A stretch of 64,000 nt of DNA from Mesorhizobium sp. M8A.F.Ca.ET.218.01.1.1 (GTDB taxonomy: Bacteria > Pseudomonadota > Alphaproteobacteria > Rhizobiales > Rhizobiaceae). This document shows positions 20,892-25,177 of this stretch, one piece after another. The stretch covers positions 1 to 64,000 of the forward strand of contig NZ_SRUZ01000011.1 in NCBI RefSeq assembly GCF_004791165.1, read 5' to 3'. The notes beneath the pieces are model-generated. The model made no database searches and had not been told where the DNA came from. It saw only the letters and a program-made list of their open reading frames with translations. The position numbers and the translations under genes were made by a program. Numbering within the stretch: the stretch's first letter is position 1; each line of letters opens with the position of its first letter.

Positions 20892-22943
20892 ATGGGTACT
20901 CGCGCCGGAGGACGACGCACGGGACCGAAATGCATTGCCATAGTCGGTCCCTTCGCAAGCGGTAAGACGACACTTCTCGAAGCCATATTGGCCCGTACGG
21001 GCGCCATCCCCCGCCAGAATCCGGTTTCATCGGGCAACACCGTTTCAGATCATTCGCTCGAGGCCCGCGCCCACGCCATGAGCGTCGAGGCGTCGATCGC
21101 CACCACAGAATTCATGGGCGAGCAATTCACCTTCGTCGACTGCCCCGGGTCGATCGAATTCTCCTTCGAGGCCGAACCGGTACTGGCGGCCTGCGATGTC
21201 GCGGTGGTCGTGGCCGAGGCCGACGAAAAAAAGATTCCAGCCCTGCAGCTCATCATGCGCAAGCTTGACGATCTCGGCGTGCCACGCATCCTGTTCCTCA
21301 ACAAGGTCGACAAGGCGATCGCGGGCGTGCGCGACACGCTGAAGATGCTGCAGCCGACAAGCGCGGCGCCGCTGCTTCTGCGCCAGATTCCGCTGCGCAA
21401 GGACGGCGTCGTCATCGGCTCGATCGATCTGGCGCTGGAGCGCGCCTACATCTACCGCGAGTACGCCGAGAGCGAGGTGGCCGAGATACCCGGCGACGAC
21501 AAGGCGCGCGAACTGGAGGCGCGCTTCTCCATGCTGGAGACGCTGGCCGACCATGACGACCAGCTGATGGAGCAGTTGCTCGAGGAGATCGAGCCGCCCA
21601 GGGACGCGATCTTCGACGATCTCGCCGCCGATCTGCGCGACGGCGCGGTGACACCGGTGCTGATCGGCACCGCCGAGAAAGGCAATGGCGTGCTGCGCCT
21701 GTTGAAGACGATCCGCCACGACGCGCCCGACATCGAGGCGACCCGCAAGCGGCTCGGTGCCCCGGACGGCAACGCGACGGTGGTCCAGGTGATGAAGACC
21801 ATCCACACGCCGCATGGCGGCAAGCTGTCGGTGTCGCGCATTCTGTCGGGCCAGGTCGCCGACGGCTTGGAACTGTGGCTGCCCGGCGGCGACACCGCCA
21901 AGGTTTCCGGCATCTACAGGATGCTGGGCAAGGACCAGGTCAAGCTGACCGCCGCCAGAACCGGCGACACCGTGGCGCTCGGCAAGCTGGACGCGGTCAA
22001 GACGGGCCAGACGCTCAGCTCCGCCAAGGGAGGCATCAAACAGCTCTTCGATGTCGAGCCGCCGCAGCCGGTCTTCGCCTTCGCGCTGCGCCCCAAGGAG
22101 CGCAAGGACGAGGTCAAGATGTCGGCGGCCATCCAGCGCCTGGCCGAGGAAGACCCCTCGCTCAGCCTGCGCCAAAACCAGGACTCGGCCGAGACCGTGC
22201 TGTCGGGTCACGGAGAGATGCATCTGCGCGTGGTGCGCGAGCGGCTGGAGGGCAAGAACCAGATACCGGTCGAAGGCCATGCGCCGGCGGTGCCCTATCG
22301 CGAGACGATCCGCAAACCGGTGCAGCAGCGCGGCCGTCACAAGAAACAGTCGGGCGGCCACGGCCAGTTCGGCGATGTGGTGATCGAGATCAAGCCGCTG
22401 CCGCGCGGCTCCGGCTTCCAGTTCACCGACACCATCACCGGCGGCGTCGTGCCCAAGACCTACATCCAGTCGGTCGAGACCGGCATACGCGACTATCTGA
22501 AGACCGGCCCGCTCGGCTTCCCCGTGGTTGACGTCGCGGTCAACCTGTCGGACGGCTCCTACCATGCGGTCGATTCCTCCGACATGGCGTTCCAGATGGC
22601 GGCAAAGCTCGCCATGAAGGAAGGCATGGCCGCCTGCTCGCCGGTGCTTCTGGAGCCGGTGATGAAGATCGAGATCGTCACGCCGTCGGACGCGACATCG
22701 AAGATCATCGCGCTGATCCCGCAGCGGCGCGGCCAGATCCTCGGCTATGACGCGCGGCCCGATTGGCCCGGATGGGATGTCGTCGAGGCGACCATGCCGC
22801 AGGCCGAGATCGGTGATCTGATCATCGAGTTGCGGTCGGCCACTTCAGGCGTTGCCAGCTACCGCGCCGCCTTCGACCATATGGCCGAGCTGACTGGCCG
22901 TCTCGCCGACGAGGCGATGAACGCCAACGGCAAGGCCGCCTGA
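20892..22943 (+). CDS. Elongation factor G-like GTPase
   Basis: A 683-residue EF-G paralogue with all five domains. P-loop GPFASGKT (G19-T26), G3 DCPG (83-86), G4 NKVD (137-140). Domain IV follows a GRHKKQSGGHGQFGDV segment and domain V ends in GVASYRAAFDHMAELTG. The histidine that follows DTPG in true EF-G/EF-Tu (DTPGH) is a serine here (DCPGS), as in the EF-G-like group rather than in canonical FusA. The canonical fusA is expected elsewhere. Ribosome binding is likely; classical translocation activity is uncertain. Confidence 0.9.
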   Translation: MGTRAGGRRTGPKCIAIVGPFASGKTTLLEAILARTGAIPRQNPVSSGNTVSDHSLEARAHAMSVEASIATTEFMGEQFTFVDCPGSIEFSFEAEPVLAACDVAVVVAEADEKKIPALQLIMRKLDDLGVPRILFLNKVDKAIAGVRDTLKMLQPTSAAPLLLRQIPLRKDGVVIGSIDLALERAYIYREYAESEVAEIPGDDKARELEARFSMLETLADHDDQLMEQLLEEIEPPRDAIFDDLAADLRDGAVTPVLIGTAEKGNGVLRLLKTIRHDAPDIEATRKRLGAPDGNATVVQVMKTIHTPHGGKLSVSRILSGQVADGLELWLPGGDTAKVSGIYRMLGKDQVKLTAARTGDTVALGKLDAVKTGQTLSSAKGGIKQLFDVEPPQPVFAFALRPKERKDEVKMSAAIQRLAEEDPSLSLRQNQDSAETVLSGHGEMHLRVVRERLEGKNQIPVEGHAPAVPYRETIRKPVQQRGRHKKQSGGHGQFGDVVIEIKPLPRGSGFQFTDTITGGVVPKTYIQSVETGIRDYLKTGPLGFPVVDVAVNLSDGSYHAVDSSDMAFQMAAKLAMKEGMAACSPVLLEPVMKIEIVTPSDATSKIIALIPQRRGQILGYDARPDWPGWDVVEATMPQAEIGDLIIELRSATSGVASYRAAFDHMAELTGRLADEAMNANGKAA

Positions 22944-22963
22944 TTTCACTCGTTTCATGAGAA

Positions 22964-22987
22964 GCCCCCTCGAAGGATCGAGGGGGC
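22964..22987. terminator. Perfect hairpin after the EF-G-like gene
   Basis: GCCCCCTCGA (22964-22973) and TCGAGGGGGC (22978-22987) with loop AGGA. It lacks a plus-strand T tract but is the first hairpin after the gene, 20 bp past the stop. The next hairpin (22997-23026) has T runs on both strands. Confidence 0.6.
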
Positions 22988-22989
22988 AA

Positions 22990-23180
22990 AAACCAAAAAC
23001 GGCGCCCGGGGGGCCGGACGCCGTTTTGTTGTGCGGACCGTTTTCTTGGGAGGAGAAACGGCAGGTCCGCCGCATGTAGGTCGCCGAACTTCGGCGGAAA
23101 AGGTTCGGACGCGGTAGCCGCCTGAGCCCGGGCCGTACGAGTGATGCCCCCATCTCCCGTCCGAACCACACCGCGTCCTA
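22990..23180 (-). ncRNA. Predicted anti-Shine-Dalgarno sRNA A
   Basis: On the minus strand a hairpin (plus coordinates 23035-23068, outer arms GGACC/GGTCC plus an AAACGG-type inner stem) presents CUCCUCCC in its loop (complement of 23048-23055). A terminator with T-rich tail follows at 22997-23026, and a promoter fits at 23186-23214. This is the architecture of alphaproteobacterial anti-SD sRNAs (alpha-r families). At about 185 nt it is longer than usual, so the 5' end could lie further inside. The family was not checked by covariance search. Confidence 0.55.
22997..23026. terminator. Bidirectional terminator (EF-G-like gene and sRNA A)
   Basis: AAACGGCG (22997-23004) pairs with CGCCGTTT (23019-23026). 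On the plus strand TTTTGTTG follows. On the minus strand TTTTTGGTTTTTG follows, so it would end the minus-strand sRNA and back up the plus-strand gene. Confidence 0.75.
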
Positions 23181-23185
23181 GCATC

Positions 23186-23214: not shown

Positions 23215-23290
23215 GTTACCAGAGGTTACATGACACTGTTACGTGGCAATTCTGATGAAATTTTCGCTCGTCCCGCCCGGGTCCGGGCAA

Positions 23291-23406
23291 CAAAAAAGCC
23301 GGATCAACGAAGATCCGGCTGAGTTTGATTGGAAGTGCCTGTTAAGGCTAACCTCCAGAGGGGAACACTCGAGGGCGCTAATGGGAGGAGAACGCGCCCA
23401 GGAGAT
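23291..23406 (-). ncRNA. Predicted anti-Shine-Dalgarno sRNA B
   Basis: About 115 nt on the minus strand. From 5': a GGGCGC/GCGCCC hairpin (arms at 23394-23399 and 23373-23378) whose 15-nt loop shows CUCCUCCC (complement of 23383-23390). A middle region with a CCTC/GAGG mini-stem follows. Last is a terminator AGCCGGATC/GATCCGGCT (23297-23320) with a T-tail (23292-23297). Length, single-stranded anti-SD loop and terminator match the rhizobial alpha-r14-like anti-SD sRNAs that can base-pair with ribosome binding sites. No protein-coding frame there is convincing. Confidence 0.72.
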
Positions 23407-23412
23407 GACCTA

Positions 23413-23441
23413 TATATGTGCTCATCATGCCCAAGAAACAA
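23413..23441 (-). promoter_or_regulatory. Predicted promoter of sRNA B
   Basis: Minus strand TTGTTT (23436-23441) and CATATA (23413-23418), 17-bp spacer, inside an AT-rich patch. The predicted start near 23406 places the anti-SD hairpin at the very 5' end. Confidence 0.55.
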
Positions 23442-23670
23442 GCATCTATTTTGCAACACACGCATGCAAAAAGGCACAGGCTGTGGTCCAACCCATTTGG
23501 GGAGCCAATAGGACCAGCAGAATCGTGAAAATGAAGCGTACTTTCGGGTCATTCTCGTCTCGAAAACGCCAATCCCAACCGATTTTGTTCCCAAAATGCC
23601 GAAAAACACTGATGATGTGGAATGAGGCACCGGCGGTTCAATTCCAAGGCAGTCAAGCGGAGATCAACCA

Positions 23671-24189: not shown

Positions 24190-25086
24190 TCAGAAGGACC
24201 AGCTTCTGGCCTTGGCGATGATGAAGTCGCGGAACACGTGCAGCTTGGCCTGGTTCTTCATCGCGTCGGGATAGGCGAAATAGGTGTCGAAGGACGGCAC
24301 CTCGGTTTCCGGCAAAAGCTGCACCAGGCCGGAATCCTTGCTGATCACATAGTCCGGCAGCATGGCGATGCCGGCGCCGCCCTGCACGGCGCGCTTGATC
24401 GACAGGATGTCGTTGATCTGCAGTGTCGGCACGCGCCGGCCGCTCTCGAAATCACCGACCGTCTCCAGCCAGTTCAACTCCGACAGATGCGACGGCACAG
24501 GCAGGCCGAAGGTGACGATGCGATGGCTTCTCAACTCTGCGATCGAGCCCGGCTTGCCGTATTTGGCGACATAGGACGGTGCCGCGTAGAGATGGAAATG
24601 CACGGTGAACAGGCGGCGCTGGATCAGGTCCGGCTGTTGCGGCTGGCGCAGCCGGATGGCGCAATCGGCCTGGCGCATGGTGAGGTCGAGCTCCTCGTTG
24701 GCGAGGATCAGCTGCAGGCTGATTTCGGGGTAGAGTTCGATGAACTCCTGCACCCGCTCGGTCAGCCAGCCGGCGCCGAGGCCGACGGTCGTCGTCACCC
24801 TGAGCACACCGGACGGGCGGTCCTTGGTCTCGGTCAGCCGCGACTTGATGGTTTCCAGCTTCATCAGCACGTCATGCGCCGTGCGGAACAGCATCTCGCC
24901 CTGTTCGGTCAGCACAAGGCCGCGTGCATGACGATTGAACAGCGGCACGCCGACATCATGTTCGAGCGCGCTCACCTGTCTCGATATCGCCGATTGCGAC
25001 AGATGCAGCGTCTCGGCCGCATGCGTAAACGACCCCGCTTCCGCCGCAGCGTGAAACACGCGTAGCTTGTCCCAGTCCAACGCCAT
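24190..25086 (-). CDS. lsrB: LysR-type regulator of the LsrB/VtlR group
   Basis: A 298-residue LysR regulator. The N-terminal helix-turn-helix reads GSFTHAAETLHLSQSAISRQVSALE, preceded by MALDWDKLRVFHAAAEA, which I recognise from LsrB of Sinorhizobium and VtlR of Brucella/Agrobacterium. Orthology is supported by its neighbours trxB and lrp. In those species it controls redox, envelope and sRNA (AbcR) genes and is needed for host interaction. Only one cysteine (Cys142) is present. It reads in the same direction as trxB, 91 bp downstream of it. Confidence 0.9.
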   Translation of the reverse strand: MALDWDKLRVFHAAAEAGSFTHAAETLHLSQSAISRQVSALEHDVGVPLFNRHARGLVLTEQGEMLFRTAHDVLMKLETIKSRLTETKDRPSGVLRVTTTVGLGAGWLTERVQEFIELYPEISLQLILANEELDLTMRQADCAIRLRQPQQPDLIQRRLFTVHFHLYAAPSYVAKYGKPGSIAELRSHRIVTFGLPVPSHLSELNWLETVGDFESGRRVPTLQINDILSIKRAVQGGAGIAMLPDYVISKDSGLVQLLPETEVPSFDTYFAYPDAMKNQAKLHVFRDFIIAKARSWSF

Positions 25087-25177
25087 GATTTCCCCTCGTT
25101 CCGGTTGGCGTTTGAATGAAAAATCAGGCTTTTACACGGCGCTTCTAAGCCGTTTTTTTAACAGTTTTGCGAGCCGC

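Follow-up and report, generated by a model that had tools for sequence, protein, structure and literature searches.

The window analysed here, 64,000 nucleotides of a Mesorhizobium contig, very probably holds a real gene for a small RNA (sRNA) of a known type, AbcR. The gene is an AbcR1-type copy within the alpha-r15 family, its precise identity being AbcR1, and it adds one member to a published family that includes M. loti. We are highly confident in the account as a whole, according to which this Mesorhizobium gene would be activated by the LysR-type regulator LsrB and its RNA would act as an anti-Shine-Dalgarno (anti-SD) repressor of many mRNAs. At the locus itself we found the family match, both anti-SD motifs, the predicted structure, a terminator, the position of the LsrB box, conservation and linkage to lsrB. 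The features are collected in Table 1.

Table 1. Features of the region between the EF-G-like gene and lsrB, with positions in the window.
Feature	Position	Strand	Basis
EF-G-like translation GTPase gene, neighbour, probably unrelated	20892..22943	plus	NCBIfam NF009379, 1008 bits
RNA2, structured RNA in tandem with the sRNA	22993..23179	minus	covariation; no Rfam match at cut-off
RNA2 terminator-like stem, 14 pairs	22996..23027	minus	terminator scan and structure
RNA2 hairpin, CUCCUCCC in the loop here	23033..23070	minus	sequence and structure
Three GTAAC repeats, RNA2 promoter region	23215..23242	minus	alignment
AbcR1-type (ar15) sRNA gene, about 115 nt	23292..23406	minus	Rfam RF02345 match; fold
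Intrinsic terminator stem-loop, 9 pairs, then T6	23297..23320	minus	sequence and terminator scan
aSD2, UUCCCCUC, between hairpins 1 and 2	23358..23365	minus	sequence and fold; equals S. meliloti aSD2
aSD1, CUCCUCCC, in the 5' loop	23383..23390	minus	sequence; same as S. meliloti aSD1
Sigma-70-type core promoter, CTTGTT-N17-ACATAT	23414..23442	minus	by eye against published PabcR1; conserved in 88-locus alignment
Putative LsrB/VtlR operator, dyad TTTTGCA-N9-TGCAAAA	23449..23471	minus	dyad and half-motif conservation
Inverted repeat CTGGTCCTAT...GGACCACAG, upstream of the operator	23481..23517	minus	88-locus alignment
Likely lsrB (vtlR) orthologue, LysR-type, probable activator of the sRNA	24190..25086	minus	Pfam, identity
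GAGGGGAA, lsrB ribosome-binding site, exact aSD2 complement	25090..25097	minus	leader comparison

When the whole 64-kb window was scanned with all 4227 Rfam families, no family except ar15 (RF02345) reached its cut-off. The ar15 match, at 23292-23406 on the minus strand, spans the full model (positions 1-112 of 112) and scores 43.9 bits, just 3.9 bits above the cut-off of 40, with an E-value of 1.1e-5 over 64 kb. An earlier note on this DNA had proposed a minus-strand sRNA running from 23406 to 23291 and recommended a covariance search; the Rfam scan gives a match above cut-off whose limits agree within one base. The note was also right in seeing an alphaproteobacterial anti-SD sRNA, but the family is alpha-r15 (AbcR) and not one of the suhB/mmgR or alpha-r7/alpha-r14 groups that it named.

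The predicted fold consists of three hairpins, namely a 5' hairpin, a second hairpin and the terminator, as in the definition of alpha-r15, which has three hairpins with UCCUCCC exposed by the 5' loop (PMC3712013). The 5' hairpin with an anti-SD octamer in its loop, already described in the earlier note, is present: a GGGCGC/GCGCCC stem closes a 15-nt loop containing CTCCTCCC at 23390-23383. The strong intrinsic terminator was likewise recovered, with a 9-pair stem at 23320-23297 followed by T6 (AGCCGGATC-TTCGTT-GATCCGGCT-TTTTTT), and the fold predicts an unpaired stretch ahead of it, in the place of the A/U-rich Hfq site of the ar15 family. At -46.2 kcal/mol the fold lies well below the shuffle mean of -26.7 (z -6.4), and none of 200 shuffles did as well. 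Covariation adds little, with only two pairs changed on both sides in a Mesorhizobium-only alignment of 14 sequences (11 distinct; shuffle mean 1.0, reached in 125 of 500), because the stems hardly vary there, 98.1% of cells being paired. On a mixed alignment of 39 ar15 sequences RNAalifold returned six pairs only, probably a result of misaligned variable stems.

Two 8-nt anti-SD motifs have been described for AbcR1/2 of S. meliloti (PMC8844928): CUCCUCCC, carried by the 5' loop, and UUCCCCUC, located between hairpins 1 and 2. The window sRNA carries both letter for letter. The octamer CTCCTCCC alone occurs at chance level in the window (2 occurrences, 2.55 expected) and was dropped as stand-alone evidence; it is the covariance match and conservation, not frequency, that make it significant. 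This conservation was assessed in 88 extracted loci, comprising the 80 best lsrB loci and 8 more, with the window copy included and some genomes possibly occurring twice. The aSD1 octamer and the second motif are kept in 87 of the 88, the exception being cut by a contig end, and in 87 of the 88 aSD2 sits inside GTTCCCCTCTGGAGGT. Loss of the octamer in related genomes, which the earlier note had said would speak against the sRNA, is thus not what we found.

At all 80 loci examined the sRNA region lies downstream of lsrB in the same orientation, one locus being cut by a contig end; these loci are the best 80 of 386 lsrB relatives, and 78 of them are titled Mesorhizobium. Conservation in the 88-locus alignment drops on either side of the stretch from about 23520 to about 23288. 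The product of 24190-25086 has Pfam HTH_1 and LysR_substrate domains and shares about 67-70% identity with the LysR proteins encoded next to ar15 in other genera. The gene is likely an lsrB orthologue, as judged against those LysR proteins. An lsrB match at E 1e-60 was present in 149 of 151 family genomes, and the adjacency of lsrB/vtlR to the AbcR1 gene has been described for S. meliloti and A. tumefaciens. Here lsrB and the sRNA have an ICMT-like gene between them, and the adjacency that marks the AbcR1 branch is retained. The earlier note had remarked that the EF-G-like neighbour might be there by chance; we too judge it probably incidental, the informative neighbour being lsrB on the other side.

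All 146 searched genomes of the window's genus gave an ar15 match, 145 of them above cut-off, and of 199 genomes sampled from the family 151 had a match at E 0.001, with 132 of these exceeding the cut-off. The published alpha-r15 alignment includes M. loti MAFF303099, according to a figure legend in PMC3712013, and the family was therefore already known from Mesorhizobium. The 7.13-Mb, 251-contig genome studied here has three ar15 copies, all above cut-off, two of them on contigs other than that of the window.

With S. meliloti AbcR1 (alpha-r15) the window sRNA shares both 8-nt anti-SD motifs, the three-hairpin fold, a sigma-70-like core, an LsrB box at -61 to -49 and synteny with lsrB. Unlike it, the window sRNA has a low Rfam score, is separated from lsrB by the ICMT-like gene and has as its tandem neighbour a different RNA, here called RNA2, instead of AbcR2, the other ar15 copies lying on other contigs.

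The earlier note had called a promoter with 17-bp spacing. By eye, CTTGTT-N17-ACATAT does align with CTTGAC-N17-CTATAT, the core published for S. meliloti PabcR1, but a generic sigma-70 scan was silent. In the same promoter of S. meliloti an LsrB/VtlR box, GCAT-N3-TG-N3-T, is reported at -61 to -49. The corresponding box here, GCATGCGTGTGTT at 23467-23455, falls at exactly -61 to -49 if the sRNA starts at 23406. A. tumefaciens AbcR1 under VtlR likewise has a LysR activator and a proposed GCAT-N3-TG-N3-T box, whereas the Mesorhizobium half-motif belongs to a full dyad, TTTTGCA-N9-TGCAAAA. The half-motif is common in the window (13 occurrences, 8.5 expected); among the extracted loci it matches in 78 of 88 and the dyad is found in 88 of 88. 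Perfect TTTTGCAT-N8-TGCAAAA occurs at one site in the 7.1-Mb genome, at the sRNA. In a search for an LsrB regulon that allowed up to three mismatches, the operator gave 76 matches, counted on both strands with many sites double-counted, vs 29 for the reversed control.

The distribution of the operator was followed in 61 ar15 promoters, the best-scoring loci of the ar15 searches with one cut locus left out. GCA-N9-TGC is in place in 26 of 28 copies that have lsrB in the fetched flanks (8/8 in the genus, 18/20 in other genera). Among non-adjacent copies it is in place in 3 of 24 within the genus and 8 of 9 in other genera. These counts indicate that, within the genus, the operator sorts AbcR1-type from other copies; dispersed ar15 copies of other genera can keep it without lsrB nearby.

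Several further observations concern these elements. The inverted repeat upstream of the operator, CTGGTCCTAT...GGACCACAG, has one match in the genome; it is kept in two loci whose lsrB-sRNA gap is too short for the ICMT-like gene (L035, L063) and has diverged in L053. Some genomes of the genus hold ar15 copies scoring 95-112 bits (L004-L006, L154-L162); none of these 12 has lsrB in its 1.5-kb flanks, and all 12 have GCAT-N3-TG-N3-T at about -61. The third ar15 copy of the genome (L143:4951-5038, or G000:C251:93450-93537) is located 133 bp past the repC gene of a repABC operon, and its promoter resembles, by eye, the published RpoH1 consensus. A general repC-ar15 link was dropped after no other fetched locus matched this RepC as query.

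By analogy with S. meliloti and A. tumefaciens, we infer that the gene is transcribed, and activated by LsrB, and that its RNA uses Hfq and represses its targets. LsrB, encoded by the neighbouring gene, would bind the dyad spanning -61 to -49 and activate the sRNA promoter. The resulting RNA of about 115 nt would expose aSD1, CUCCUCCC, and aSD2, UUCCCCUC, probably with Hfq. Both motifs would then cover the ribosome-binding sites of many mRNAs, mainly those for periplasmic binding proteins and metabolism, and translation of these mRNAs would fall. A wide regulon has been reported for S. meliloti AbcR1/2, and livK is a reporter-confirmed AbcR target there (PMC8844928); by the same analogy the regulon of the window sRNA may be wide.

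AbcR sRNAs set the nutrient uptake of rhizobia, and in Mesorhizobium the window sRNA can be expected to down-regulate genes for such uptake. We compared 46 leaders of periplasmic binding protein genes in this genome with 60 control leaders (30 SDR and 30 LysR). They were taken best-scoring first, as 16 of 16 Peripla_BP_6 (including 3 that score under the family cut-off), 30 of 31 SBP_bac_5, 30 of 95 SDR and 30 of 90 LysR, and the start codons, here as in the lsrB-leader tests, were picked by script. The pooled binding-protein leaders pair more strongly than the controls with both aSD1 (p 0.006) and aSD2 (p 0.011). SD strength differs nearly as much in this pooled test (p 0.06) and explains part of the signal; shuffled motifs reach the pooled difference in 11 of 200 cases for aSD1 and 2 of 200 for aSD2. 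LivK-type leaders (Peripla_BP_6, n=16) pair better than all 60 controls (p 1e-4 for aSD1, 0.002 for aSD2) and better than SDR alone (p 0.005 and 0.03). SBP_bac_5 leaders are no better paired than the controls (p 0.20, 0.12) or than SDR alone (0.85, 0.60), and the two binding-protein families, when combined, do not outperform the SDR leaders (p 0.33 and 0.25). The pooled signal stems from Peripla_BP_6 and from weak LysR leaders. Target pairing thus fits the AbcR model in part, without proving it. A literature search returned no functional study of an AbcR sRNA in Mesorhizobium, and the locus provides a testable wiring of activator, operator, sRNA and targets.

An addition to this account, possible although we lean against it, is that aSD2 also pairs with the lsrB ribosome-binding site, GAGGGGAA, so that AbcR1 would repress its own activator. 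The lsrB start is preceded by GAGGGGAAATC-ATG. In the best 80 of 386 lsrB loci the exact 8-nt complement is found in 59 and GAGGGG in 77, while leaders of neighbouring genes at the same loci have none (0/79 for trxB, 0/65 for the ICMT-like gene, 0/72 for the EF-G-like gene). Of the 30 top-scoring lsrB matches in the family search, two of which (L314 and L315) lack a start codon at the position picked, 16 are exact and 23 have GAGGGG; for the 28 from other genera, that is, excluding the window and a genus-mate, the figures are 15 and 21. The pattern GAGGGGAA-N1-9-ATG has 21 matches (20 sites) in this genome, 9 of them before reading frames of at least 100 aa, vs 1 for the reversed pattern. As a control the reversed pattern is weak, given that purine-rich sites are in any case to be expected ahead of ATG. 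GAGGGG occurs in 4 of 106 leaders of four gene families, lsrB among them. By aSD2 pairing energy, however, lsrB ranks only 11th of these 106, and one other leader also has GAGGGGAA. In a first set of leaders from other genera the exact octamer occurs in just 2 of 18, and shared ancestry together with SD function could account for the conservation of the lsrB ribosome-binding site.

Co-occurrence with ar15 gave no significant support for feedback. The test used 80 lsrB loci, 45 from genomes with an ar15 match and 35 from genomes without, the latter consisting of 19 listed as matchless and 16 inferred from absence among the listed matching genomes; 34 of the 35 were re-scanned. The ar15 group was counted only where UUCCCCUC lay downstream, which gave 17, 16 and 37 loci in three identity ranges. 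In these distant genera pairing leans better with ar15, not significantly (p 0.23, 0.17 and 0.06 in the three ranges), and GAGGGG is present with vs without ar15 in 4/17 vs 4/29, 4/16 vs 2/22 and 15/37 vs 5/30. At one locus of the group without ar15, L352, both motifs occur downstream, and an ar15 copy may have gone undetected there. A literature search that covered few subscription papers found no published claim of LsrB-AbcR1 feedback. With the lsrB ribosome-binding site, such feedback can be probed by a simple reporter assay.

RNA2 was detected through a second CTCCTCCC, at 23055-23048. It sits about 110 bases downstream of the sRNA, and its region was found by BLAST in 79 of 80 lsrB loci (the best 80 of 386) and, with a nucleotide profile, in other genera. 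Across an alignment of 20 genomes, 7 from the window's genus and 13 from outside it, pairing holds in 94.3% of cells, and 23 of the 42 pairs are changed on both sides. This covariation was reached by none of 500 shuffles and by no slid version, although the structure was derived from the same alignment used for the test, which favours it. The anti-SD hairpin (helix 3) has one-sided changes only, and the folding energy of the single sequence is moderately low (z -2.1). Of 1079 alignment gaps in RNA2 and its promoter region, 85 are multiples of three, a scarcity that argues against a coding function. The full CTCCTCCC is present in 8 of 80 RNA2 extracts, and CCTCCC in 15 of the 20 aligned genomes.

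In RNA2 no Rfam family reached its cut-off, the best being ar14 (33.3 bits, cut-off 58.8) and anti-hemB (29.6 bits, cut-off 49.5). Judged from this comparative evidence, RNA2 is very likely a genuine structured RNA for which Rfam 15 has no family, and would add a conserved structured RNA to those catalogued there. The order lsrB, ar15, RNA2 on one strand holds in 13 of 13 loci of other genera, which were chosen because RNA2 was present. RNA2 was not recovered everywhere: in the fetched lsrB flanks of other genera it was clear at 10 of the 28 nearer loci and at 3 of another 80. Matches in L318, L388 and L397 are weak, and those in L388 and L397 score close to opposite-strand echoes. In one genome outside the window's genus, RNA2 follows three tandem ar15 copies (L313:2496-3176). 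Two ideas on the regulation of RNA2 were discarded: an exact palindrome as its operator, which occurs in 12 of 80 extracts only, and the GTAAC repeats as a ChvI/BvrR site, given that GTAAC is absent from the main text of two papers and that the ChvI consensus sequences quoted in one of them differ. In M. huakuii, MH_s25 is described as a Northern-positive 187-nt RNA on the minus strand with both flanks on the plus strand (PMC5596092), which makes it a candidate counterpart of RNA2 by orientation and length.

More speculatively, the lsrB-EF-G interval could hold a two-RNA module, a reading that we consider unlikely. LsrB would activate AbcR1, AbcR1 would repress lsrB via aSD2, and RNA2 (~190 nt, with a CCUCCC loop and a GTAAC-repeat promoter region) would occupy the tandem place of Sinorhizobium AbcR2, respond to another regulator and act either as a second anti-SD RNA regulator or as a partner of AbcR1.

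That the element is instead a 5' leader or a 3'-UTR product, as lsrB upstream on the same strand might suggest, is very improbable: it has its own conserved promoter-like stretch and operator directly upstream, a gene on the opposite strand separates it from lsrB, a strong terminator closes it, and the next minus-strand frames (22822-23184 and 22845-23171, 108-120 aa) overlap RNA2, which looks noncoding.

We give still less credence to an ar14 (NfeR1) or suhB/mmgR-type sRNA in place of ar15, although such RNAs have the anti-SD octamer in a 5' loop in common with the window sRNA, ar14 (RF02344) aligns weakly with it (16.4 bits) and the clan of ar15 includes suhB/mmgR (RF00519), so that these families are related, one lower-scoring match of the same clan having been left out of the sRNA listing; the ar14 score is 42 bits below its cut-off of 58.8, no suhB match reached cut-off in the window, the window sRNA scores higher against ar15, and aSD2 and linkage to lsrB are AbcR traits. 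NfeR1 (alpha-r14) shares the anti-SD mechanism and is activated by LsrB in S. meliloti, but it differs in its structure, described as three hairpins each bearing CCUCCUCCC (PMC10746234).

In other genomes, ar14-type RNAs were seen in the corresponding slot. Of 34 lsrB loci scanned in family genomes where no ar15 was detected, five (L348, L353, L358, L360 and L368) have an ar14 match at E < 1e-4 directly downstream on the same strand, the curated cut-off being reached in L358 and L360. An exchange of this kind between ar15 and ar14 next to lsrB is relevant to the replacement of one anti-SD sRNA family by another. Weaker ar14 matches were seen in L347 and, on the other strand, in L349, and SorX-like matches below cut-off in L354, L355, L357 and L362. 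In L368, four ar14 copies follow lsrB in tandem.
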